Source: Ruminiclostridium sp. (GTDB lineage Bacteria; Bacillota_A; Clostridia; Oscillospirales; Ruminococcaceae). Taken from it: a DNA stretch of 9,437 bases. Positions 1 through 9,437 of the stretch are shown piece after piece. Where the stretch lies: assembly GCA_017550775.1 (NCBI GenBank), contig JAFZOA010000442.1, forward strand, positions 1 to 9,437, in the 5' to 3' direction. The stretch's first letter is position 1. Each line of letters opens with the position of its first letter. Both the position numbers and the translations under genes were made by a program. The notes under the pieces were generated by a model. The model saw only the letters and a program-made list of their open reading frames with translations. It was not told where the DNA came from and ran no database searches.

Positions 1-891
1 GTCGGCGCATTTGCTCCGAAGGTCGGCGGAGCTCCCGCAAATGTCTGCGCGGCGTTCTCGCGGCTCGGCGGGAAATCGAGGCTGCTGACCCAGCTCGGCG
101 ACGACCCGTTCGGACACAAGATCATGCATGAGCTTGCGGAAGTAGGGGTGGACACCGGCTGTATCTCGCTCACGGAGGAAGCGAACACGGCGCTCGCGTT
201 CGTGTCGCTCGGCGAGAACGGAGACCGGACATTCTCCTTCTACCGCAAGCCCTCCGCGGATATGCTCTACACGCCGGAAAGCGTGAGGGAGGAATACTTC
301 GACGACGTTTTCGCTCTGCACTTCTGCAGCGTTTCTATCGGCGACTTCCCGATGAAGGAGGCGCACAGACGTGCTATCGACATCATACGCGGCAGGGGAG
401 GTATAGTAAGCTTTGACCCGAACCTGCGGTTCAACCTCTGGGACATCAGAGAGGCGCTGCAAAAGGCGGTGAGGGAGTTCATACCGCTGAGCGACATTGT
501 GAAGCTGTCGGAGGACGAGCTGGAATTTGTCACCGGCGAGGACGATATCGCAATGGGCGCGCATACGCTGTTCGAGCAGGGTGTAAAGCTTGTTTTGTAC
601 ACCTGCGGCAGTAAGGGCGCATACGCTTTCACGAAGAACACGAACGCGTATTCTCCTGCGCATAAGGTCGAGGCGGTCGATACTACGGGAGCGGGTGACG
701 GCTTCACGGGGGCGTTCCTCTGGAAGCTGAGACAGATATGCCCGGAGCGCGGCGGGCTCGGAGAGATACCCACGGAGAGCCTTACCGGGTGTCTCGGATT
801 TGCGAACAAGTTCTGCGCTATGAGCGTTCAGAGAAAAGGCGCGATAGCATCTTATCCGACAGCGGACGAGATGCAGAAAATAAAACTGTAA
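1..891 (+). CDS. scrK: Fructokinase, PfkB family (5' end missing)
   Basis: The reading frame is open from the first base, so the start lies outside the window. The visible 296 residues cover nearly all of a usual 310-320 residue protein. Near the left edge is the PfkB N-terminal signature GGAPANVCAAFSRLGG (fragment residues 9-24). Near the C-terminus is the second signature DTTGAGDGF (227-235), whose Asp233 would be the catalytic base next to the anion hole. The stretch RTFSFYRKPSADMLY is typical of bacterial fructokinases within this family, so the likely reaction is ATP + fructose to fructose 6-phosphate in the cytoplasm. The symbol is a family label; another ketose or sugar kinase cannot be excluded. 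It lies 19 bp upstream of ptsH in the same direction, suggesting one transcript linking sugar phosphorylation with PTS transport. The first in-frame ATG at 124 is internal, because conserved signature 1 lies before it. Confidence 0.9.
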   Translation, partial: VGAFAPKVGGAPANVCAAFSRLGGKSRLLTQLGDDPFGHKIMHELAEVGVDTGCISLTEEANTALAFVSLGENGDRTFSFYRKPSADMLYTPESVREEYFDDVFALHFCSVSIGDFPMKEAHRRAIDIIRGRGGIVSFDPNLRFNLWDIREALQKAVREFIPLSDIVKLSEDELEFVTGEDDIAMGAHTLFEQGVKLVLYTCGSKGAYAFTKNTNAYSPAHKVEAVDTTGAGDGFTGAFLWKLRQICPERGGLGEIPTESLTGCLGFANKFCAMSVQRKGAIASYPTADEMQKIKL

Positions 892-910
892 TACGAAAGG
901 AATAATTATC

Positions 911-1171
911 ATGAAAGAATTTGCTTACACGATCAAGGACGAAATAGGGATCCACGCAAGACCCGCAGGCAACCTCGTAAAGCTGATAAAGGGCTTTTCG
1001 AGCAGCGTGACCATTGAGAAGGAAGGCAAGCCCGCCGTAAACGGTACCGCTCTGATGAAGCTCATGGGGCTCGGCGTTAAGTGCGGCGAGACGGTGAAGT
1101 TCACAGTTGAGGGCGACGACGAGGAAGCTGCTGTAAAGGCAATTGAGGAATTCATGAGCGCTAACCTGTAA
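911..1171 (+). CDS. ptsH: HPr, phosphocarrier protein of the PTS
   Basis: The 86-residue product has the normal HPr length and the phosphorylation motif GIHARPAG with His15, which takes phosphate from Enzyme I and passes it to sugar-specific EIIA domains. An AAAGGA ribosome site sits about 9 bp before the ATG. The second HPr landmark, Ser46 in the K-S-I-M-G-V type helix, is not conserved. The matching stretch reads VNGTALMKLMGLG, with one extra residue before it, so the serine position is Ala47 or Thr46 depending on gap placement. No serine occurs between residue 32 and residue 84. Classical HPr kinase control through Ser46 and CcpA is therefore doubtful. It is placed between the fructokinase and ptsI, which supports a general PTS role rather than a specialised paralogue, though the regulatory variant resembles paralogues seen in Clostridia. 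Confidence 0.95.
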   Translation: MKEFAYTIKDEIGIHARPAGNLVKLIKGFSSSVTIEKEGKPAVNGTALMKLMGLGVKCGETVKFTVEGDDEEAAVKAIEEFMSANL

Positions 1172-1200
1172 TTATTTAAACGAAAGGCGGGGTGACGGAT

Positions 1201-2832
1201 ATGGTCGTATATAAAGGCAAGGGAGTATATGGGGCTGTCGCGATAGGCAAGGTCTCGGTGTTCAAACGTCAGGCGGCTGCCGTTCGCCGCGTAAGTATTG
1301 AAGATACGGCGGCTGAGCTTGAAAGAGTGGAAGCTGCGAAAGCGATCGCGGTGGAACAGCTCACCGCGATACACGAAAAGGCTCTCAAAGAGGTCGGAGA
1401 AGCCAACGCCGAGATATTCGAGATACACATTATGATGCTCGATGACGAGGACTACAACGACTCCATAAAGAGCATCATCGAAACACAGAAGGTCAATGCC
1501 GAGTATGCTGTGGCGGAGACCTCGGACAATTTCGCGGAGATGTTCGCGAACATGGACGACGCGTATATGCAGGCGCGCTCCGCGGACGTTAAGGACATCT
1601 CCAACCGTCTTATCGCGTGCATGAGCGAGGGCGGCGGAAGTTCGGAAAGCCCGGACGAGAAGATGATCGTCTGCGCGGACGACCTCGCGCCGAGTGAGAC
1701 GGTATCGCTCGACAAGGACAAGGTGCTCGCGTTCGTTACCGCGTTCGGTTCGTCCAACTCGCACACCGCGATACTTGCCCGGAACATGAATATCCCCGCA
1801 GTCATAGGCGTGGGAGAGGACTTTCTGAACGGTATTGCGGACGGCGATATGATGATCGTTGACGGTCACACCGGGGAAGTGTTCGTATATCCCGACGAGG
1901 ACACGATAAAGCGGCTCACCGCAAAGCAGGAGGAGGACGCGCGCAAGAAGAAGCTGCTCCAGGAGCTAAAAGGCAAGGATAACGTGACGCTCGACGGCAC
2001 GAAGATCAAGGTATATGCAAACATAGGCGGCGTCGGAAGTATCGGCGCTGTCCTCGCCAACGACGCGGGCGGCATCGGTCTGTTCCGCAGCGAGTTCCTG
2101 TACCTTGAAAGTGAGGATTACCCTACCGAGGAACAGCAGTTCACCGCATACCGTAAGGTCCTCGAAAGCATGGCGGGAAAGAAGGTCATTATCCGCACGC
2201 TCGATATCGGAGCCGACAAGCAGATCGGCTATTTCGACCTCGACAAGGAGGACAATCCGGCGCTCGGATTCCGCGCCATACGCATTTGCCTCACCCGACC
2301 GGAGATATTCAGGACTCAGCTCCGCGCACTGTACAGAGCGTCGGCGTTCGGCGAGCTCGGGATAATGTTCCCGATGATAACCAGCGTTTCCGAGGTGGAG
2401 AAGTGCCTCGCGCTTTGTGATGAAGTTAAGAAGGAGCTGGACAGCGAGGGTATAAAGTACAGCGACAAGACCGAGGTCGGCATCATGATCGAGACTCCGG
2501 CTGCTGCGGTCATAAGCGACAAGCTTGCTCCGCTGGTAGATTTCTTCAGCGTCGGCACCAATGACCTGACGCAGTACACCCTTGCCTGTGACAGACAGAA
2601 TGCCAAGCTTGAAGCGTTCGTCGATACCCACCACGAAGCTGTGCTGCGGCTTATCGGGATGTCGGCGAATAACGCACACGCGAACGGTGCGTGGATAGGG
2701 ATTTGCGGAGAGCTCGCGGCAGATCTTGCACTTACCGAAACGTTCCTGCGAATGGGAATTGACGAGCTTTCGGTATCGCCGCCGTATGTTCTTCCGCTGC
2801 GTGAGAAGATCCGGAGCATAAATCTCGGTTGA
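1201..2832 (+). CDS. ptsI: Enzyme I of the PTS (PEP-protein phosphotransferase)
   Basis: This soluble enzyme autophosphorylates with phosphoenolpyruvate and hands the phosphate to HPr His15. I chose ATG 1201: the AGGCGGGG ribosome site at 1186-1193 lies 7 bp upstream, whereas the in-frame GTG at 1192 overlaps that site. The product has 543 residues. The active histidine is His188 in SNSHTAILAR, the PEP-utilising swivel domain. The C-terminal barrel carries DFFSVGTNDLTQY (447-459, PEP-utilising signature 2) and the catalytic cysteine Cys502 in GICGELAAD. These positions match classical Enzyme I almost residue for residue. The protein stops about 30 residues earlier than the usual 570-575, just after GIDELSVSPPYVLPLREKI. 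All catalytic residues are present, so it should be active. The gap of 29 bp after ptsH indicates one operon. The stop codon lies inside a hairpin (2811-2840). Confidence 0.97.
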   Translation: MVVYKGKGVYGAVAIGKVSVFKRQAAAVRRVSIEDTAAELERVEAAKAIAVEQLTAIHEKALKEVGEANAEIFEIHIMMLDDEDYNDSIKSIIETQKVNAEYAVAETSDNFAEMFANMDDAYMQARSADVKDISNRLIACMSEGGGSSESPDEKMIVCADDLAPSETVSLDKDKVLAFVTAFGSSNSHTAILARNMNIPAVIGVGEDFLNGIADGDMMIVDGHTGEVFVYPDEDTIKRLTAKQEEDARKKKLLQELKGKDNVTLDGTKIKVYANIGGVGSIGAVLANDAGGIGLFRSEFLYLESEDYPTEEQQFTAYRKVLESMAGKKVIIRTLDIGADKQIGYFDLDKEDNPALGFRAIRICLTRPEIFRTQLRALYRASAFGELGIMFPMITSVSEVEKCLALCDEVKKELDSEGIKYSDKTEVGIMIETPAAAVISDKLAPLVDFFSVGTNDLTQYTLACDRQNAKLEAFVDTHHEAVLRLIGMSANNAHANGAWIGICGELAADLALTETFLRMGIDELSVSPPYVLPLREKIRSINLG

Positions 2833-2860
2833 TGCTCCGGGATAAGATCTTAATTCTTCT
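2811..2860 (+). terminator. Possible weak intrinsic terminator after ptsI
   Basis: A perfect 9-bp stem CCGGAGCAT (2811-2819) / ATGCTCCGG (2832-2840) has a 12-nt loop that holds the ptsI stop codon. A T-rich but interrupted tract follows (2850-2860). It would end or attenuate the fructokinase-ptsH-ptsI transcript. The poor T-tract keeps confidence low. Confidence 0.4.
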
Positions 2861-2899
2861 GATAGCAAGTATTCTGTTGTAAAAACATGGTGAAAAGTC

Positions 2900-3442
2900 A
2901 TGAAAAAAATAAAAGCTGCTGCTGTGTCAGCGTTTTCTGCAGTTATATTGTTATCATCCTGCAGCGCGGGAGGTTTCCCTGCGCAGACCGATCCGCCCAC
3001 AGATCAGTTCAGAAACGGCTACGGCGGGTATGTGGTGGATATTGAACAGGAACAGGATTACAGCAAAATTACCGCGTTTACCGATAAAGCGGTGTACCCG
3101 CTTGATTTCGACAAGATAACGGTTACTGTTAAGAACGAAAACGCTGGTAAGGGCTTTTATTTCTTCGACATACCGGTCATTGAGTATAACGACAATGGGA
3201 AATGGATACGCCTCAATTACTCTCCGAAAAGCTATGAGATACCGGAACAATGGGCGTTCTGCGGCATTGAAAACGCTCCCGAAAAACAATTCAGTACGGT
3301 AATGTCGATTTTCCGAGATATGCTTGATGGAAACTGGAAAACCGGAGAGTACCGCGCGGTCGTTTTTGCGGGAACGGAGATGATCTACGCTCCGTTTGGT
3401 ATAAGCGAGTCTGTTGGTACTACTGAAACAGAGATAAGCTGA
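2900..3442 (+). CDS. Small secreted lipoprotein, Ig-like fold likely
   Basis: The 180-residue product starts with a lipoprotein signal peptide: KKIK, a hydrophobic stretch to about residue 18, then the lipobox LSSC with Cys21 as the expected lipidated residue. The mature part has no catalytic motif I recognise. Residues about 51-150 (KITAFTDKAVYPLDFDKITVTVKNENAGKG...), with alternating strands and the pattern 'yp.d..kitvtvkN', look like a bacterial Ig-like beta-sandwich of the kind found in clostridial lipoproteins. That assignment is by pattern only. It would be anchored on the outer face of the cell membrane; the role is unknown. It lies 67 bp after ptsI and may be transcribed separately. 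The ribosome site is modest (GGTGA about 7 bp before the ATG). A good terminator follows at 3477-3508, so it closes the chromosomal block left of the tRNA junction. Confidence 0.85.
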   Translation: MKKIKAAAVSAFSAVILLSSCSAGGFPAQTDPPTDQFRNGYGGYVVDIEQEQDYSKITAFTDKAVYPLDFDKITVTVKNENAGKGFYFFDIPVIEYNDNGKWIRLNYSPKSYEIPEQWAFCGIENAPEKQFSTVMSIFRDMLDGNWKTGEYRAVVFAGTEMIYAPFGISESVGTTETEIS

Positions 3443-3520: not shown

Positions 3521-3582
3521 CGATTGTCATTAATTCAATGTCCTATCGGTATCACAACTCCGAAGTATGCCTTATCTGAATA

Positions 3583-3627
3583 AAAACAGACAAATCCGAG
3601 CCATAGCGGTTCGGATTTGTTTGTTTT
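3583..3627. terminator. Long terminator hairpin directly after the tRNA 3' end
   Basis: Arms 3583-3602 and 3608-3627 pair over 20 bp (two G-T pairs) around a 5-nt loop. The core reads ACAAATCCGA / TCGGATTTGT. Read on the minus strand it begins right after the encoded CCA of the tRNA fragment and ends in TTTTT, the layout of a tRNA gene's own terminator. It now also lies downstream of the integrase gene (stop at 3892) and probably ends that transcript. The + strand reading also ends in a T-rich arm, so it may act in both directions. Confidence 0.8.
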
Positions 3628-3649
3628 GGCTCCTGCTACTGGACTTGAA
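3627..3649 (-). other. tRNA-Asn-like 3' end: attachment site (att) of an integrated element
   Basis: Read on the minus strand, these 23 bases are a T-loop TTCAAGT, the 3' half of a T-stem (CCAGT), an acceptor strand (AGCAGGA), discriminator G and encoded CCA. The 5' half of the T-stem and the rest of a tRNA are absent: the base before the T-loop does not pair with C61. Compared from memory with E. coli tRNA-Asn, 19 of 23 positions agree. An acceptor beginning with U1 and discriminator G73 also fit Asn. Such a 3' fragment next to a tyrosine integrase is the classic displaced half of an attachment site. DNA to the left (tRNA terminator, lipoprotein, PTS genes) would be host and DNA to the right would be the element. 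The intact tRNA copy is not in this window. Confidence 0.7.
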
Positions 3650-3891
3650 TTGACCTTTGCGCTTTTTGCGTTTTCAGGCATATTCAAGAGAAGTCGCTTA
3701 TAATGCGGCTTCGCAGCATCCCAACTTTTGTAGCTTGTGGTCATTTGACGTATGTATTTGTAACAATAACGACCAAAATAAAACCAATTTTTCCTGCTAT
3801 TCCGCATAACCGAGCCATTCAGTCGCCCTCTTGATGACCGATTTTTCATTTTGGTCAACAAGCGGGCAACTTTTGTTTTTCGGCGCATTCT
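3650..3891. other. Non-coding strip between att and integrase, with candidate integrase arm sites
   Basis: No credible gene is present. The open minus-strand frame here (start at 3888) reads straight through the tRNA fragment and its terminator, so it is treated as accidental. The strip holds GGTCATTTGAC (3739-3749), AATAACGACCAA (3765-3776) and TTTTGGTCAAC (3849-3859). The same words recur, in a similar order, at 8704-8857. A position between att and the integrase gene is where arm-type binding sites of tyrosine integrases are expected. Confidence 0.45.
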
Positions 3892-5082
3892 TTACGCTCT
3901 CTTTGCTATCGGCAACTGCGGGATAGCCTGCGTTACGACTTCGCTTATGTGCTTGTCATTGTTCCTGAGCGTATGGGCATAAATTCCGAGCGTTACATCC
4001 GGGCGGGCGTGTCCTGCACGCTTTGCGATGTCCGGAACACTTATTCCTGCCTGCAACTGTAAGCTGATCGAAGTGTGTCTGAACTGGTGCGGGTGGAATG
4101 TCGGCAGTCCGTGTTTCTTTGTGAAGTTCCTGATCCATTCGCGTACCGTGTTCGGTGAGAGATACTCACCCGGATACTTTGTCGAGGAAAATACTGCTCT
4201 TTCGTCGATGTTCCATTCTCTGTTTCTGATCGCTCCGAAGAGACACTTCTGACGGTATTCCAGCAGCATATTCATTATTCCGTCGTCCATATACAGATAC
4301 CGTTCTCCCGCCGTGGTCTTGCACCCGTCCTCAACGTGTCTGCCTGTCTTGTCGTGGACGAAATGCCTGTGAATGTGTATGCAGTTTTCATTGAAATCAA
4401 TATCGTCCCAACTCAATGCACACAGCTCTCCGATACGGCAACCCATTGAAAGCAGCAAACTGAAAAGCACCTGATAAACATAATACTTTTCATATGAGAA
4501 CAATTCGGTGTAGAATTTGTTGAGTTCGTCCTCCGTGAGTGCAACCACCGTGTTTTTGTTGCGCTTCGGCGGCATTGCAGCGTCAGCGTAATTTCTCGGA
4601 ACAACACCCTCTTTGTACGCGACCTCCATAACATTTCTGATAAATCCGTGGAGTTCGTGAACGTAGCTTTTGGATGTTCCCGAGTTTAGCAGTTCCGAAT
4701 ACGCATTGTTCAGAGCCTTCGGAAGTAGATCCTTCAACTGAATGTGTCCGATGATCGGTTTCAGTTTCTGGAGTTTTATCCGATAGTTGTACGCTGTTGA
4801 GCTTGCGATACACGACTGCTCCTTGCTTTTTACGACGTACTCGGCATACTCCGCGAAGGTTATCCGCGAGTCGCATACGGTCTGCTCCTCGACACCTTTC
4901 TCGAAGATCGCTGCTTGCTTCTCTGCATTTTTTCTGTTCCAGCTTTCGCTCTTGCTGTTGTCGTACTTGACCGAAAGATTTTTGAATACCTGCTTTCCCG
5001 TGTCGGTATCACGATGATCGAACACGCGAATGCGATATGATGTGATCTTACCGTCCTTGTTCCTGCGTTCCTGAATGTTCAT
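3892..5082 (-). CDS. Tyrosine-type site-specific integrase
   Basis: The 396-residue product has the three-part build of Tn916/phage-type integrases. Residues about 1-65 are an arm-binding domain (GKITSYRIRVFD...), about 72-165 are a SAM-like core-binding domain, and about 180-375 are the catalytic domain. All catalytic residues are visible: Arg216 (GCRIGEL), Lys255 in the beta-hairpin, His332 and Arg335 (HQFRH), His358 (GHARPDVT) and the nucleophile Tyr368 (GIYAH). It looks intact and active. It would cut and rejoin DNA at the att site in the tRNA 3' end, whose CCA is 262 bp beyond its stop codon. ATG 5082 follows GGGGGTGAGG closely. Two strong promoters (5177-5205 and 5256-5284) face it. Base composition is visibly more AT-rich than the flanking PTS and sigma genes, in line with acquisition. 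No excisionase gene is seen next to it. Confidence 0.95.
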   Translation of the reverse strand: MNIQERRNKDGKITSYRIRVFDHRDTDTGKQVFKNLSVKYDNSKSESWNRKNAEKQAAIFEKGVEEQTVCDSRITFAEYAEYVVKSKEQSCIASSTAYNYRIKLQKLKPIIGHIQLKDLLPKALNNAYSELLNSGTSKSYVHELHGFIRNVMEVAYKEGVVPRNYADAAMPPKRNKNTVVALTEDELNKFYTELFSYEKYYVYQVLFSLLLSMGCRIGELCALSWDDIDFNENCIHIHRHFVHDKTGRHVEDGCKTTAGERYLYMDDGIMNMLLEYRQKCLFGAIRNREWNIDERAVFSSTKYPGEYLSPNTVREWIRNFTKKHGLPTFHPHQFRHTSISLQLQAGISVPDIAKRAGHARPDVTLGIYAHTLRNNDKHISEVVTQAIPQLPIAKRA

Positions 5083-5176
5083 ATCCTCACCCCCATTTTA
5101 TTTCCGAAGATGACGATATATTTTGACTGTCTTTTCATTTAATCCTGCCTTTCCGACAGCCGAATATTCTGTGATT

Positions 5177-5205
5177 ATTATAGCACAAAATTTCCGGCTT
5201 GTCTA
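5177..5205 (-). promoter_or_regulatory. Sigma-A promoter for the integrase (proximal)
   Basis: On the minus strand TAGACA (5205-5200) is followed after exactly 17 bp by a perfect TATAAT (5182-5177). The expected start is near 5170, giving a leader of roughly 90 nt before ATG 5082. Confidence 0.65.
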
Positions 5206-5255
5206 CTGTTTTATGTACGGCATTTTATTAAATGCTTCGGAAATCTTGTGAGCTT

Positions 5256-5284
5256 ATTATACCAAAGAGAACGCGAAAAGTCAA
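5256..5284 (-). promoter_or_regulatory. Sigma-A promoter for the integrase (distal)
   Basis: On the minus strand TTGACT (5284-5279) is followed after exactly 17 bp by a perfect TATAAT (5261-5256). This is closer to consensus than the proximal one. It sits immediately after hairpin 5289-5329. Its transcript would run about 170 nt before the integrase start and pass through the proximal promoter. Confidence 0.7.
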
Positions 5285-5329
5285 ACAACAAAGGGCTTTA
5301 CAACGCCATTTGCAAAGTAAAGTCCTTTG
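5280..5329 (-). terminator. Hairpin insulating the integrase promoters
   Basis: Arms 5289-5301 and 5317-5329 pair over 13 bp (core AAAGGACTTTAC / GTAAAGCCCTTT on the minus strand, one G-T pair) around a 15-nt loop. On the minus strand the stem is followed by TTGTTGTTTGACT, a T-rich tract that overlaps the -35 box of the distal promoter. It would stop read-through from the sigma unit upstream before new initiation begins. Confidence 0.5.
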
Positions 5330-5587
5330 AGGTTATTTGAAGTATTTTGAAGTTAAATTTCACCCGATTGTGCATATAGCTGCTTTTCTCGAAAGTTACC
5401 ACAAAATACTAAATGATTATTGTGAGTCTCGTAGAATTTGATTTTTTTCAAATCCGTTTAATGAGCGGCGGCATTTTTTCTCGAAGAGCGCACGATACCA
5501 TCTCGGTGGTATATAAGTGCGCACTTATTAACATAGGCCAACAAGCGCACGTGTCAAAACCCGTGCGCTTGTAAATGTAATCTGATA
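5330..5587. other. Intergenic stretch with a cluster of GCGCAC stem-loops
   Basis: No gene is seen. The right part (5488-5572) carries four copies of one hexamer in alternating sense: GCGCAC 5488-5493, GTGCGC 5517-5522, GCGCAC 5545-5550, GTGCGC 5563-5568. The first two close a stem-loop with an inner ATACCA/TGGTAT stem (5495-5500 / 5507-5512). The second lies in a 16-bp palindrome ATAAGTGCGCACTTAT (5513-5528). The last two form an 11-bp stem (5541-5551 / 5562-5572) that follows the stop of the minus-strand gene at 5588 and may end it, though its T-tract is poor. The left part (5330-5480) is AT-rich with a small ATTTGA/TCAAAT hairpin. Confidence 0.45.
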
Positions 5588-7225
5588 TCACTTTTTCGGT
5601 ACGAACCGCAGATAATAAATTTTCTCCTTGCTGTCAATATCGGTATGTATCTTTCCGTCCTTTACATCAGTCCCGATATTGCCCTCGGTTATAACAACAT
5701 CAGGAATTCCGATGACATTGACGGACTGCGATGAAAAATCGAGCGTGCTGCCGAGAGTCGGGAACATTTCAAGGCTATACGTTATATCGCCCGTGCTCCT
5801 GTCAACATCCATGTACGCCTCGCGCGTGAGTTTTGCGGTCACAGTCACACTGCTGCCCGCGGGTATCGTCACATCAAACGTGGAGTACATAATGCGTTCA
5901 CATCTTACTGCGTCCTCGATCTGGAACTGCAGGTCGCCGAGCCCCATATATCTTTCTATCGGTCTGTCGGAATACGCTCCGTATCTGCTCAGATACTTGA
6001 TTACCGTGTCGCAGAGCGCTTTCTCGGACAGCAGACCCTTCTTACAGCTCTCATACGCTCCGGAGCAGTTCCAGTCCTTCTCCACGGACGCAAGTATTAT
6101 TCTCGGCAGCAGCTCGCCGTAGGTCATTTCAAGCCGCTCTACCTCGCCATATATATGAGACACCTCGGTGCCGGGTTCGCAAGCGCCGTTCGGATAACCG
6201 TTCAGGGTAACGTCGCTTATGTCGTCACCGCGGACTATAATAAATCTGTCGCCTGTGTAGAGCTGACCGTCACGCAGGAAAAAGCTGTCTGTGCGGGAAG
6301 CGCTGTTCTCATTGCAGCCATTGAAGCCGAAAGAGGTTATCCGTGTGTTGTCCCCGAGCTTATAGCTGACTGCGATTGCCGCCGCGCCCGTAGTTCCGAC
6401 GGAATCGCCGTAGTCGTGTACGCGGTAAACTATCACCGGCTCGTCAAAGGTCGGAGCCGCCGCAAGAGCGTTCTGCAAGTATGTTCCGTCACCCAACAGC
6501 CCGATATACTCATCGTAACTGTGGAAATCATCAAGGTTAGAGCTGTCGCTCTGCGCGGGGTAAGCTGCGCTCGAAAATGCTCCGCTGTAGCCGCCCGCGA
6601 CAAACTCAGCCTTTATTTCCGAGCCGTTAACCGTTATCGTCGGATAATTCGCCCCCCATACACTCTCAGTCTGTGCGCCTTCAAGGTCATTCAACGCACA
6701 CCTGAACGGGTACATAAGCTTTACGGTTTTGTCCGCATCGGTCGAGTTCGTCAACGTGTAGCCGTCCACAGCGGTAAACACTCCCATATAGCGCCGGTCG
6801 CCTGCGTCAGCCAAATTGCCGAACAGATTTCCGCTTGTCATCTCGTACGTCAGCTCACGTTCCGCGGTAATGCCGTCGCAGTCTCCCGCCGCGGTTAGCG
6901 GTATTACCGGAGGCTTGTATCGCTCTATCCAGAAGTAATTGTCTCCGCCCGCAACAGTTCCGGCATCTCCACCGTATGCGGGTTGAGTAGTGACCGCTCC
7001 GGTTTGCTCCGTCGCCGAATTTGTGACAGGTATCCCTCCTGTGCCGGAAAGCGTTGAAACTGCAAAAACAGCCGCCCCGCCTACAAGACAAATGCTTGCC
7101 GCGATTCCGAGAGGCTTTATGAGCCACATCGGAGACTTTCTGAATTTATAGTCCGCCGCCTGTTCAATTATATCATCACGGATCTCCGTGACCGCGTCAT
7201 ACATTATCATGCCTTTGTCGCTCAT
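5588..7225 (-). CDS. Large single-pass membrane protein, probable anti-sigma factor / sensor of the adjacent ECF sigma
   Basis: The 545-residue product has a short cytoplasmic head (1-37) with the helix DAVTEIRDDIIEQAADYKF, one membrane segment (about 39-59, after KPLGIAASICLVGG) and an extracellular part of about 485 residues. That part starts with a Ser/Thr/Gly-rich linker and then has mixed strands, with no domain I can name. The start overlaps the sigma stop by four bases (ATGA), so the two are translationally coupled and made in step. The 'D.IT.I.DDII..A' head followed by a membrane helix is common in Clostridia proteins encoded behind ECF sigma factors, where it is thought to hold the sigma factor. 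It lacks the zinc anti-sigma motif HxxxCxxC. Role as anti-sigma is inferred from position and topology. The long outside part could sense a wall or envelope signal. A hairpin at 5541-5572 follows the stop. Confidence 0.7.
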   Translation of the reverse strand: MSDKGMIMYDAVTEIRDDIIEQAADYKFRKSPMWLIKPLGIAASICLVGGAAVFAVSTLSGTGGIPVTNSATEQTGAVTTQPAYGGDAGTVAGGDNYFWIERYKPPVIPLTAAGDCDGITAERELTYEMTSGNLFGNLADAGDRRYMGVFTAVDGYTLTNSTDADKTVKLMYPFRCALNDLEGAQTESVWGANYPTITVNGSEIKAEFVAGGYSGAFSSAAYPAQSDSSNLDDFHSYDEYIGLLGDGTYLQNALAAAPTFDEPVIVYRVHDYGDSVGTTGAAAIAVSYKLGDNTRITSFGFNGCNENSASRTDSFFLRDGQLYTGDRFIIVRGDDISDVTLNGYPNGACEPGTEVSHIYGEVERLEMTYGELLPRIILASVEKDWNCSGAYESCKKGLLSEKALCDTVIKYLSRYGAYSDRPIERYMGLGDLQFQIEDAVRCERIMYSTFDVTIPAGSSVTVTAKLTREAYMDVDRSTGDITYSLEMFPTLGSTLDFSSQSVNVIGIPDVVITEGNIGTDVKDGKIHTDIDSKEKIYYLRFVPKK

Positions 7226-7779
7226 ATCTCGTCACCCCTTTCCGTAAGATGTTTCCGCAGGCTTTCACGCAACCGCGACAGTTTCCGCGACATACCCGCT
7301 TCGGATAAACCTGTTTTCTTCGCGAGAGCTGCTGCCGTGTCGCCGTACCAATAGCGGCGGACGAATATCATTCTGTCCTGCTCCTCCAGCCCGTCGAGCC
7401 AGTCGCTGATATGCCTGCTGAGCTCCTTCGCATCGAATTCCCGTTCAACGTTTTCGCCGGAGGGCAGGCATTCCTCAAGCTCCGACAGCGCGACTTCAAA
7501 GCCGTCATACCGCTTCTGCGCGTGCATTTTCCTGTACCGTCCTATCGCGATGTTGCGCGTGATACGCCCGAGAAACAGCCGAAAGCTTTCCGGCAGCCGC
7601 GGCGGTATCTGTTCCCACACCGACATATATGTATCATTCACGCATTCCTGCGCATCCTCCATTATTCGCAGCAAATTAAGCGCTATTGCTGTGCAGTAAG
7701 CGCCGTATTTGCTGTCTGTTTCCTTTATCGCCGATTCATCCCGCTTGAAATACAGCTCAATTATCCCCGCGTCATCCAT
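7222..7779 (-). CDS. ECF-type RNA polymerase sigma factor
   Basis: I chose ATG 7779 (185 residues) because GGAGGAG lies just before it at 7789-7783. The longer GTG start at 7794 has no ribosome site. Residues about 8-88 are sigma region 2, with DAQECVNDTYMSVWEQIPP (43-61) corresponding to the region 2.2 core-binding / 2.3 part and RNIAIGRYRK following. Residues about 120-178 are region 4, with the helix-turn-helix GDTAAALAKKTGLSEAGMSRKLSRLRESL that reads the -35 box. There is no region 1 or 3, as expected for the ECF group. It would redirect RNA polymerase to a stress or envelope regulon and often to its own promoter. It is 11 bp downstream of the small membrane protein gene and overlaps the putative anti-sigma gene by 4 bp, so all three form one operon. 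Confidence 0.92.
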   Translation of the reverse strand: MDDAGIIELYFKRDESAIKETDSKYGAYCTAIALNLLRIMEDAQECVNDTYMSVWEQIPPRLPESFRLFLGRITRNIAIGRYRKMHAQKRYDGFEVALSELEECLPSGENVEREFDAKELSRHISDWLDGLEEQDRMIFVRRYWYGDTAAALAKKTGLSEAGMSRKLSRLRESLRKHLTERGDEI

Positions 7780-7790
7780 TTTCTCCTCCG

Positions 7791-8063
7791 TCACCTTTCA
7801 TCTGCAATTCTTGTATCATTATACACCTCTTGCCCGAAAATGTAAATGATATTTCCCGTAATATATCCATTCAGCCTGCTGTTATCGTCATTGATTCGGT
7901 GCAGACATTCGATACGGTAAAGGTGTGTGACAGGCTCGAAAACAACCGTTCCGCCGTCGTTGGCTATATTCTTTATCGGGAACAGCAGAGCGAGCAGAAA
8001 GAGCAACTCAACAGCCATAATTAAGATAATAAGACATATAAGGATGAGCTTTTTTGTTTTCAT
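7791..8063 (-). CDS. Small membrane-anchored protein, first gene of the sigma operon
   Basis: The start is uncertain among GTG 8072 and ATG 8069, 8066 and 8063. The ribosome site AAGGGG (8077-8072) is best spaced for 8063, giving 90 residues. The N-terminus MKTKKLILICLIILIMAVELLFLLALLF is a signal anchor or uncleaved signal, with no lipobox. About 60 residues follow outside the membrane (GGTVVFEPVTHLYRIECLHRINDDNSRLNGYITGNIIYIFGQEV...), with no domain I recognise. The sigma factor ribosome site begins 2 bp past its stop, so it is surely co-transcribed. It could be an accessory sensor, a partner of the large membrane protein, or a product whose translation opens the sigma ribosome site. The ordinary codon pattern and tight operon packing argue that it is a real gene. 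Confidence 0.7.
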   Translation of the reverse strand: MKTKKLILICLIILIMAVELLFLLALLFPIKNIANDGGTVVFEPVTHLYRIECLHRINDDNSRLNGYITGNIIYIFGQEVYNDTRIADER

Positions 8064-8085
8064 CATCATCACCCCTTCACTTATA

Positions 8086-8113
8086 CAGTCGCAAAAGGAT
8101 TATCAATCTTTCA
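8086..8113 (-). promoter_or_regulatory. Candidate ECF-type promoter of the sigma operon
   Basis: On the minus strand TGAAAG (8113-8108), a 16-bp spacer and CGACTG (8091-8086) resemble the TGAAAC-N16-CGTATA pattern of Bacillus extracytoplasmic sigma factors. It lies directly before the operon and leaves a very short leader. It would fit autoregulation, but the match is partial. Confidence 0.35.
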
Positions 8114-8191
8114 CTTTTTGGGGAGATTTTTTGAAAAAATATCCCGTACCGCTTTTTCAGCGATAAACCCAATAATCGTGATTAACCCCGC

Positions 8192-8586
8192 GTGACAGCG
8201 TGACAACTGTGACATAATGCAACCGGCGGTAACTCATATCCGCGTGACACCGTGACAGCGTGACAGATAATATAGATCATGGAGCCGGCAGCCATTCAAG
8301 TCCACCCACTCCGTGAATAAAATCTAATATTTTTGTGCTTGGAGCTACCTCGCCTTTGTTACTTTCTGCGAAAGTAACGCAAAGGTACTTTTGACAGTGC
8401 GGCGAGCCTTCTATCAAAAGTCCTTTGCGCCAGACTTTCCCTCTGGACTCCCTTAATGCCGCCTCTGTAATCTGGGGCGGCAATGAAGCGGCTAACGCCG
8501 CGCATCAAGACAGCAGAGCTGTCACATCTGTCACGCTGTCACACGCCACGAACCCTCAAAATCGGTATCGTGTCGTGAGCGTGACA
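8192..8586. repeat. GTGACA repeat array with a 17-bp perfect inverted repeat (MITE- or iteron-like)
   Basis: GTGACA occurs forward at 8192, 8200, 8209 (first triplet), 8244, 8252, 8260 (second triplet) and 8581. It occurs in reverse as TGTCAC at 8520, 8529 and 8537. Copies within a triplet step by 8-9 bp. The second and reverse triplets contain a perfect 17-bp inverted pair, GTGACAGCGTGACAGAT at 8252-8268 and its reverse complement at 8526-8542, enclosing a 291-bp unit. Options are a miniature transposable unit, replication iterons, or binding sites of a regulator. No replication or transposase gene lies next to it. Confidence 0.6.
8353..8385. repeat. Strong imperfect palindrome inside the GTGACA-framed unit
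   Basis: GTTACTTTC (8358-8366) pairs with GAAAGTAAC (8370-8378) around a 3-nt loop. Beyond a 2-base bulge, CCTTTG / CAAAGG extends the stem. No T-tract follows, so it is more like a mobile palindromic repeat or RNA structure than a terminator. Confidence 0.55.
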
Positions 8587-8638
8587 AAAAGATCGGCTAC
8601 CGCCGAGCAAATACAGCCCGAAATCATTCAGAACAGAA

Positions 8639-8675
8639 AACGGAGCAGGTGATTTTTCATCTGCTCCGTTCTAGA
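8639..8675. terminator. 14-bp hairpin, intrinsic terminator type
   Basis: Arms 8639-8652 and 8657-8670 (core AACGGAGCAG / CTGCTCCGTT) pair over 14 bp with one G-T pair and a TTTT loop. On the minus strand the stem is followed by TTCTGTTCT, on the + strand by CTAGAATATTC. Minus-strand termination is the better fit. It could shield the sigma operon from antisense or upstream read-through. The + strand open frame 8395-8652 ends inside it. Confidence 0.6.
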
Positions 8676-8703
8676 ATATTCGGCTGTCTAACTATGATTG
8701 CTG

Positions 8704-8857
8704 GGTCAACTCGTGGTCAACAAACTTACTTTTGGTCAACTGAAAATGCGAAATTTTGTCTGACAATGCAACAAGGAAATCGCGTAATAATGCACAATTC
8801 GGCACATTGCCATATTATGCGAAAAGCTTTGGTCAATTGACCAAATAACGACCAAGA
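8704..8857. repeat. GGTCAAC / CGACCAA motif cluster with an 18-bp palindrome
   Basis: GGTCAAC occurs at 8704-8710, 8715-8721 and 8734-8740. The perfect palindrome TTTGGTCAATTGACCAAA spans 8828-8845. AATAACGACCAA follows at 8844-8855 and is identical to 3765-3776. TTTTGGTCAAC also recurs at 3849-3859 beside the integrase. The set looks like protein-binding sites: either integrase arm sites at a second element end or operators controlling the small genes that start at 8908. Confidence 0.5.
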
Positions 8858-8907
8858 TTAGGCGCACATCTGTCAAACATCAACACCATACTTTGGAGGA
8901 TTTTCAG

Positions 8908-9177
8908 ATGAACAGCATAATAAGCAAGCTATACTACGGCGAGATCAACCCCTGCGAGAAACCGGCACCCGCTACAAAGCGGTACACCGACAACCGAAGA
9001 ACTATCTGCGATACCGAGGAACAGCTTCTCGAGCAGTTCCCCGATTGTAAAGAACTGCTCGACACCTACACCGACGCACTCCACATTGAAGCACAGTTAG
9101 AGTGCGAAGCGGACTTTGAGCGCGGCTTCCGGCTCGGCGCTCAGATCGCAGCGGAGCTGTCACAGCCTATCGATTAA
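8908..9177 (+). CDS. Small DUF6809-like protein, copy 1
   Basis: I chose ATG 8908 because GGAGGA (8895-8900) lies 7 bp before it. A TTG at 8893 in the same frame overlaps that site. The 89-residue product starts MNSIISKLYYGEINPCEKPAP and ends with ECEADFERGFRLGAQIAAEL, an acidic, mostly helical protein without a signal peptide or membrane segment. The 'I..LYYGEI.P.EKP' start and 'F..GFRLG' end match what I recall of the DUF6809 family, frequent in mobile elements and phage-related regions of Clostridia and of unknown function. It is followed after 133 bp by a closely similar gene, so it is one of a tandem pair. The GGTCAAC cluster and palindrome upstream may control it. Confidence 0.8.
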   Translation: MNSIISKLYYGEINPCEKPAPATKRYTDNRRTICDTEEQLLEQFPDCKELLDTYTDALHIEAQLECEADFERGFRLGAQIAAELSQPID

Positions 9178-9310: not shown

Positions 9311-9437
9311 ATGGATACTATTATAAGCAAGCTCTACTACGGCGAGATTTGCCCGAGCGAGAAACCAGCGCCCCAGACCAAGCGCTGTATTGAGAATAGA
9401 GCGATTATTTGCGACACCGAGGAAGAACTGATTGAAC
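9311..9437 (+). CDS. Small DUF6809-like protein, copy 2 (3' end missing)
   Basis: ATG 9311 follows CGGAGGA (9295-9301) by 9 bp. The frame runs open to the window edge, giving 42 residues: MDTIISKLYYGEICPSEKPAPQTKR and onwards. It repeats copy 1 closely (IISKLYYGEI, EKPAP, TKR, ICDTEE in the same order), and the DNA of both is alike, which shows a tandem duplication. Each copy keeps its own strong ribosome site, so both are probably expressed. Differences at many codon third positions and in several residues show the duplication is not recent. Function is unknown. The 133-bp spacer between the copies holds nothing else I can support; a longer frame at 9199-9393 is a shadow in another frame. 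Confidence 0.8.
   Translation, partial: MDTIISKLYYGEICPSEKPAPQTKRCIENRAIICDTEEELIE

Follow-up and report, generated by a model that had tools for sequence, protein, structure and literature searches.

Which recombinase displaced the tRNA end found in this 9,437-nt window (the whole stretch of DNA analysed), and does the DNA to its right belong to one mobile element or to more than one? Our comparisons favour two: an integrative mobilizable element (IME) that targets tRNA-Asn and, inside its end, a nested element at 3771-8838, a reading to which we assign a probability of roughly 0.87 from sequence comparison. The features are collected in Table 1, and compared loci are designated L with a number. 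The comparison genomes are related to the source of the window and mostly ruminant-gut.

Table 1. Features of the window, with the basis of each assignment.
Feature	Position	Strand	Basis
Presumed chromosome: sugar kinase, HPr, ptsI, lipoprotein-like gene	1..3442	+	ORF and domain matches
Terminator hairpin directly after tRNA end	3583..3627	-	same type behind intact rRNA-operon tRNA-Asn in L162/L134
Displaced tRNA-Asn 3′ end	3627..3649	-	letters; intact tRNA-Asn one nt different in L112, L134
Putative outer element (IME), terminal region	3650..3770	-	common to uninterrupted IME ends
Left arm-like repeat copy TTGGTCGTTATT	3765..3776	-	repeat comparison
GACCAAA, left direct repeat	3771..3777		sequence comparison
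Putative nested integrative element, 5,068 bp	3771..8838		joined-flank alignment to L140; distance arithmetic
Putative tyrosine integrase of nested element, 396 aa	3892..5082	-	PF00589, E 1.4e-23; 52 related loci
545-aa protein overlapping sigma gene	5588..7225	-	no Pfam or NCBIfam match
ECF-type sigma factor, nested-element cargo	7222..7794	-	domain matches
93-aa ORF	7791..8072	-	ORF list
18-bp palindrome TTTGGTCAATTGACCAAA, right edge of nested element	8828..8845		repeat comparison
GACCAAA, right direct repeat	8839..8845		sequence comparison
Right arm-like repeat copy TTGGTCGTTATT	8844..8855	-	repeat comparison
DUF6809 gene, outer element	8893..9177	+	PF20648, E 1.8e-20
Second DUF6809-like gene, cut by window end	9311..9437	+	matches DUF6809 regions of L003, L028

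The minus strand from 3649 to 3627 reads TTCAAGTCCAGTAGCAGGAGCCA, the 3′ end of a tRNA-Asn from T-loop to CCA, and the terminator behind it has arms at 3583-3602 and 3608-3627 (20 nt, 90% complementary, 5-nt spacer). ARAGORN did not find a tRNA in the window, Rfam likewise reported none at 3627-3649, and the five bases preceding the T-loop pair with the 3′ T-stem at two of five positions. The poor pairing and the ARAGORN result indicate that only the tRNA 3′ end is present and the 5′ half absent. An earlier note on this DNA had described just such a minus-strand end running from T-loop to CCA and then into a terminator, without its 5′ half, and the letters, the inverted repeat, ARAGORN and the T-stem pairing bear it out. 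The same note read the stretch as a tRNA-Asn 3′ end displaced to the border of an integrated element, and the intact tRNA-Asn and the cut ends of relatives support this reading. Intact tRNA-Asn(GTT) in L112 and L134 ends TTCAAGTCCAGTAACAGGAGCCA, one nt different from the window, and a non-redundant tally of cut tRNA ends whose inner side holds DUF6809 or a window-type integrase came to 22, the window among them. This count covers the loci gathered for the comparison, merges identical ends and leaves out ends without a DUF6809 match (e.g., L138 and L127). Together, the real tRNA-Asn one nt away and these 22 ends confirm by sequence that the tRNA-like stretch is more than chance. We presume that TTCAAGTCC in the T-loop is the crossover core of the outer element; tRNA ends of this type occurred at 52 places in a scan of eight integrase-bearing genomes, and the exact window end was found in none of 297 genomes of one related family.

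To place the terminator and the left flank, we compared them across related genomes. Within one genus, 8 of 71 genomes have the window's terminator, with one to five copies each (numbers that may mix strains since most assemblies are metagenome bins) and 20 places in all. Of these places, 14 have before it a tRNA-Asn end that reaches the T-loop or further back: a single intact tRNA, nine with the cut in the T-loop and four with the cut further upstream; three more places keep the last tRNA bases only, three lie outside the tRNA-end filter of the script, and the DNA beyond the 20 copies varies from place to place. Rfam gave the order 23S, 5S, tRNA in L162 (the same place as L134), L117, L176, and L182. 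In related genomes tRNA-Asn closes rRNA operons, which likely accounts for the recurrent terminator, and the left flank of the window is most likely chromosome downstream of such an operon. At L162 an intact tRNA-Asn is joined to a terminator of the window type, providing an unoccupied example of the site. A further element on the left, marked by the recurring terminator block, was considered as well and rejected, because several tRNA-Asn-ended rRNA operons per genome fit the copies better.

Searches with PtsI, the lipoprotein-like gene and the tRNA end did not turn up a syntenic empty site for the left flank of the window. The nearest match to the flank covers 149-153 bp at 79-80% identity in L168 and L170, two loci that retain just the final bases of the tRNA end. 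PtsI was matched in all 11 genomes of one genus (highest identity 79%), with no tRNA nearby in the 11 loci scanned (flanks of at most 1.5 kb). The lipoprotein-like gene (180 aa, window 2900-3442) was found in none of 297 genomes of the family, in a search run without a positive control; it has 24 relatives in a protein collection, one of them 276 aa long with an additional C-terminal part.

Two further features of these places were seen. Between the 5S rRNA and the intact tRNA-Asn, L162 carries an array of roughly 89-bp repeats (about 9395-10000, minus strand), most of which open with the tRNA-Asn 5′ half TTCCTGTTTAGCTCAGTCGGTAGAAC and then run for about 60 nt through unrelated sequence; L176 has a similar array at the same kind of place with fewer copies. 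After the terminator comes a block, at 3535-3582 on the minus strand of the window and in 20 related copies such as those of L134 and L140, that reads GKPxFGVVIxI, with variation mainly at third codon positions (0.42 versus 0.15 and 0.09; 20 copies, the window's own excluded). No long frame was found around the block, and on the opposite strand ITTPKFGFPE plus a stop fits equally.

We then asked what lies on the inner side of such tRNA ends. Those cut at the T-loop often have DUF6809 just inside, pointing away: at 19 of the 22 ends the DUF6809 match starts 154-207 bp from the tRNA fragment, and the other three (the window, L003, and L006) have a window-type integrase between or, in L006, DUF6809 on another contig. 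The whole element at L120 runs from intact tRNA-Pro(GGG) through an integrase, a Mob_Pre relaxase, a DUF5906 protein, an MmeI-type enzyme and a KAP ATPase to DUF6809, with a cut tRNA-Pro about 12 kb farther along. L118 carries a pair of cut tRNA-Asn ends separated by 12 kb, with an integrase after each, and in L003 the element after the fragment encodes a MobA-type relaxase and MobC. In complete IMEs the integrase at the tRNA side differs from the window type, and those of L118 are, like them, 26-28% identical to the window's. By their gene content, elements of the L118 and L120 type look like IMEs, some in tandem, whose integrase lies next to the tRNA and whose DUF6809 gene marks the far side. 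Of the outer IME, the window includes only this far, DUF6809 side, with the displaced tRNA fragment at that end; by analogy with L118 and L120, the IME's own integrase should lie beyond the right window end, beside an intact tRNA-Asn.

DUF6809 gave 112 matches in eight genomes and none in 14 control genomes. Among 30 of the 112 matches examined (L191-L220), 12 have a tRNA end at 154-207 bp and the other 18 have none within the 1.0-1.4 kb scanned; one of these 18, L201, is the same place as L003, where the tRNA end lies past the nested element. DUF6809 is therefore not confined to cut tRNA ends. The fold predicted for the protein is an all-helical hairpin, and the idea that it is a winged-helix excisionase was dropped as unsupported by the all-helical model (mean pLDDT 79.8, pTM 0.52). 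The word DUF6809 was not found in the open-licence literature searched.

The nested element lies in non-coding DNA between DUF6809 and the tRNA fragment and ends about 120 bp short of the fragment. Both direct repeats at its ends and an uninterrupted site elsewhere are present: the uninterrupted IME ends L140 and L095 read TTTGGGTCGTTATTTGGTCGTTATTTTTAC, and the window reads CTTGGTCGTTATTTGGTC, then 5,068 bp, then GTTATTGTTAC. With the 5,068 bp taken out, the joined flanks of the window align to L140 at 83% identity over 534 bp with three gaps, in an alignment that crosses the junction, to L095 at 82% over 485 bp and to L144 at 78% over 550 bp. The distance from DUF6809 to the fragment falls from 5,243 to 175 bp in the window and, after removal of 4,164 bp, from 4,368 to 204 bp in L003, both inside the range of integrase-free ends. 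On the left, homology to the close relatives of the integrase breaks off at 3738-3800 (for five of seven, at 3757-3765), short of the tRNA; on the right it ends at 8855-8858 in L001, L002, and L004 and continues into DUF6809 in L003 and L028. The two boundary zones share an exact 12-bp match, which was equalled by 1 of 2,000 random pairs of window zones (pairs less than 200 bp apart were drawn and left uncompared). The crossover is placed only to within the 7-bp repeat. By eye, the non-coding part of the element also holds clusters of direct and inverted GTGACA repeats (window about 8189-8275 and 8518-8590), part of this region being conserved in L001, L002, L003, and L028.

Eight of 52 related integrase loci in species genomes are 82-98% identical to the window's (L001-L006, L028, and L037). 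All eight are located at repeats of a similar kind next to an IME end, some at one end and some at the other, and their neighbouring tRNAs differ; the flanks are incomplete in five. Repeated insertion at one kind of site is thus observed among these close relatives, and the mapping covers them and not the relatives at 54-66% identity. The DUF6809 end of an IME is occupied in L003 and in L006 with L028, the last two probably being halves of one copy on separate contigs. The tRNA end is occupied in L001 and L002, with a tRNA 3′ end and terminator to one side of the element and, to the other, an IME integrase in convergent orientation. In L005 and L037 the visible flank is the IME-integrase side only, and L004 has a tRNA end, terminator and repeats on one side and no IME integrase in the visible 0.6 kb of the other. 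The right-hand site of L118 is uninterrupted, GGGTCGTTGTTTGGTCGTTATT, versus TTTGGTCGTTGTTTGGTC, element, GTTATT in L001. IMEs carry such paired 11-bp repeats close to both of their ends (L120 uses the variant TTGTCCATTA at both), and these look like integrase arm sites. The L005 site reads TTTGGCTCTTATT and the left copy in L004 is TTTTGGTACTTATT, which indicates that the target tolerates variation. The neighbouring tRNAs comprise tRNA-Asn, tRNA-Pro, two others that end in CCTCGACCA and CCGTACGGGTCAC, respectively, and a further one that is tRNA-Met-like by eye. An intact tRNA near the integrase relatives was not seen in the 31 loci scanned of 57, a result that, before the tRNA fragments were compared, could be taken as evidence against a tRNA site. 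At L213, whose integrase is a 66% relative, the integrase lies beyond DUF6809, outside the interval between DUF6809 and the fragment.

The putative integrase of the nested element has a reading frame open over all 396 aa and keeps HxxR ... GH ... Y, the motif of active tyrosine recombinases. Close relatives of it were not found in collections of phages, viral contigs or plasmids, the best listed matches being 31%, 59% over 120 residues, and 29%. The ECF sigma operon (5588-7794) lies within 3771-8838 and is thus cargo of the nested element, and DUF6809, separated from the 93-aa ORF by non-coding DNA, belongs to the IME. The 545-aa protein has, by eye, a hydrophobic stretch near its N-terminus and is possibly an anti-sigma factor or sensor. 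A sigma-factor or sigma-like gene is present in four of six nested elements with visible cargo (the window, L002, L003, and L028); L001 carries an HTH regulator and MgtE, and L004 a two-component system and a large frame. The sigma proteins themselves diverge, with 29% identity between the window and L002 and no clear similarity between the window and L003. Pfam detected no relaxase domain in the window ORFs tested, and two relaxase queries had no match inside the nested elements of L001-L004 and L028. Integrase relatives at 58-59% identity (L011, L014, L015, and L022) have relaxase genes within about 3 kb, so the nested clade may descend from IME integrases that lost mobilization. A match to MicC (28.8 bits, cut-off 90) was disregarded.

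These observations bear on how the junction is to be explained. In the earlier note an intact integrase was said to start 243 bp inside the fragment and to mark that junction; it is the stop codon that lies there (3892), the start being at 5082, and the integrase sits on a separate element, 3771-8838, for which relatives have uninterrupted sites, so that its link to the tRNA junction is unsupported. The note's broader expectation that the right side is mobile held for both the sigma operon and DUF6809; they belong to two elements, the sigma operon to the nested and DUF6809 to the outer. That the integrase at 3892-5082 itself recombined at the tRNA-Asn T-loop, everything rightward forming one island, would agree with an intact gene whose end lies 243 bp from the fragment, a common layout of tRNA islands. 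We nevertheless hold it to be very improbable, since at 19 of 22 tRNA ends DUF6809 lies directly inside with no window-type integrase between, whole IMEs have another integrase at the tRNA side, homology to close relatives ends at 3738-3800, interior to the fragment, and the same integrase type is found beside different tRNAs and at either IME end.

A second alternative reverses the history: the window-type integrase would be ancestral to the IMEs and mostly lost, with the repeats arising by deletion or homologous recombination and not by site-specific insertion. The 11-bp repeats could support deletion, and the 58-59% relatives are indeed close to relaxase genes; yet the element occurs at both IME ends, at the same repeat point, with different tRNAs and different cargo, and deletion would have to yield an identical product many times, which leaves this account as improbable as the single island. 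Lower still, with practically no chance of being right, stands the view that the tRNA-like stretch is a fortuitous match and there is no junction. It spans 23 nt only and neither ARAGORN nor Rfam has a tRNA there, but the stretch differs from a real tRNA-Asn 3′ end at a single position, is followed by the same terminator and shares its architecture with 21 other ends, which together refute this view.

In the two-element reading, the IME's own integrase, encoded outside the window, would have acted at TTCAAGTCC, within the T-loop of a tRNA-Asn that closes an rRNA operon, leaving the displaced tRNA 3′ end and its native terminator at the far, DUF6809 end of the IME. The nested element would then have inserted at GACCAAA within the paired 11-bp repeats near the IME ends, so that one copy of the repeat is left before it (3765-3776) and one behind it (8844-8855); this may keep the IME functional. 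On this scheme the IME integrase would move the whole composite at the tRNA, and the nested integrase would move 3771-8838 only, at GACCAAA; a circle of the nested element would join TTTGGTC / AATTGACC, with the junction TTTTATTTTGGTC to AATTGACCAAAGC. Given its position inside the IME ends and the lack of a recognised relaxase, the nested element would most simply travel in cis, and is probably carried along during IME excision and transfer. A wider proposal, which we advance tentatively and at slightly less than even odds, is that a relaxase-less clade of tyrosine-integrase elements has specialised on the integrase-binding arm repeats of IMEs, where the arm is regenerated, the IME stays mobile, and the passenger moves exchangeable ECF sigma/sensor operons between gut bacteria.

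Tycheposons target tRNAs and come with partial tRNA copies in tandem. In Islander, a tRNA island is defined by the combination of fragment, tRNA and integrase, and T-loop/junction sites and tandem arrays are counted (PMC4383910). The outer element falls into this class and that of IMEs (PMC5704250) by its displaced 3′ tRNA fragment and its T-loop/junction type of site; tandem arrays, each member with its own fragment and integrase, are common to those systems and the present one. Unlike in tRNA islands and IMEs, the integrase nearest the fragment is here not the one acting at it, so pairing a fragment with the nearest integrase, as island finders do, would pick the wrong enzyme and merge two elements. 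Site-specific elements at home in another mobile element are known from IMEs in the oriT of ICEs, and the nested element would resemble them in occupying a functional site of its host element; as PMC7563843 describes them, the oriT IMEs have their own relaxase, whereas here a relaxase was not found; they sit in oriT, and the home here is the repeats near the IME ends. Helper-embedded PICIs, phage satellites inside prophage late genes according to PMC10111431, resemble the present system in that one integrase clade returns again and again to a single kind of helper element, giving nested pairs; they differ from it in the host element, which here is an IME, and in the site, which here is non-coding and not a prophage late gene. 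No description of IME end repeats used as an insertion home was found in the open-licence literature searched. If the repeats are arms of the IME integrase, the passenger would use another element's recombination site as its home and spread regulatory operons; the proposed site, GACCAAA within paired 11-bp repeats, is concrete enough to be tested, and the uncharacterised DUF6809 family becomes linked to the ends of tRNA-targeting IMEs.

The same genomes also hold tRNA pieces cut at other points, in the D-loop or anticodon arm: tRNA-Asn in L098, L104, L126, L142, and L149, tRNA-Pro in L103, and tRNA-Leu in L100. ARAGORN calls the cut pieces in L126 and L149 71-nt tRNA-Asn genes. These other cut points suggest that other integrases may act at the same tRNA genes.
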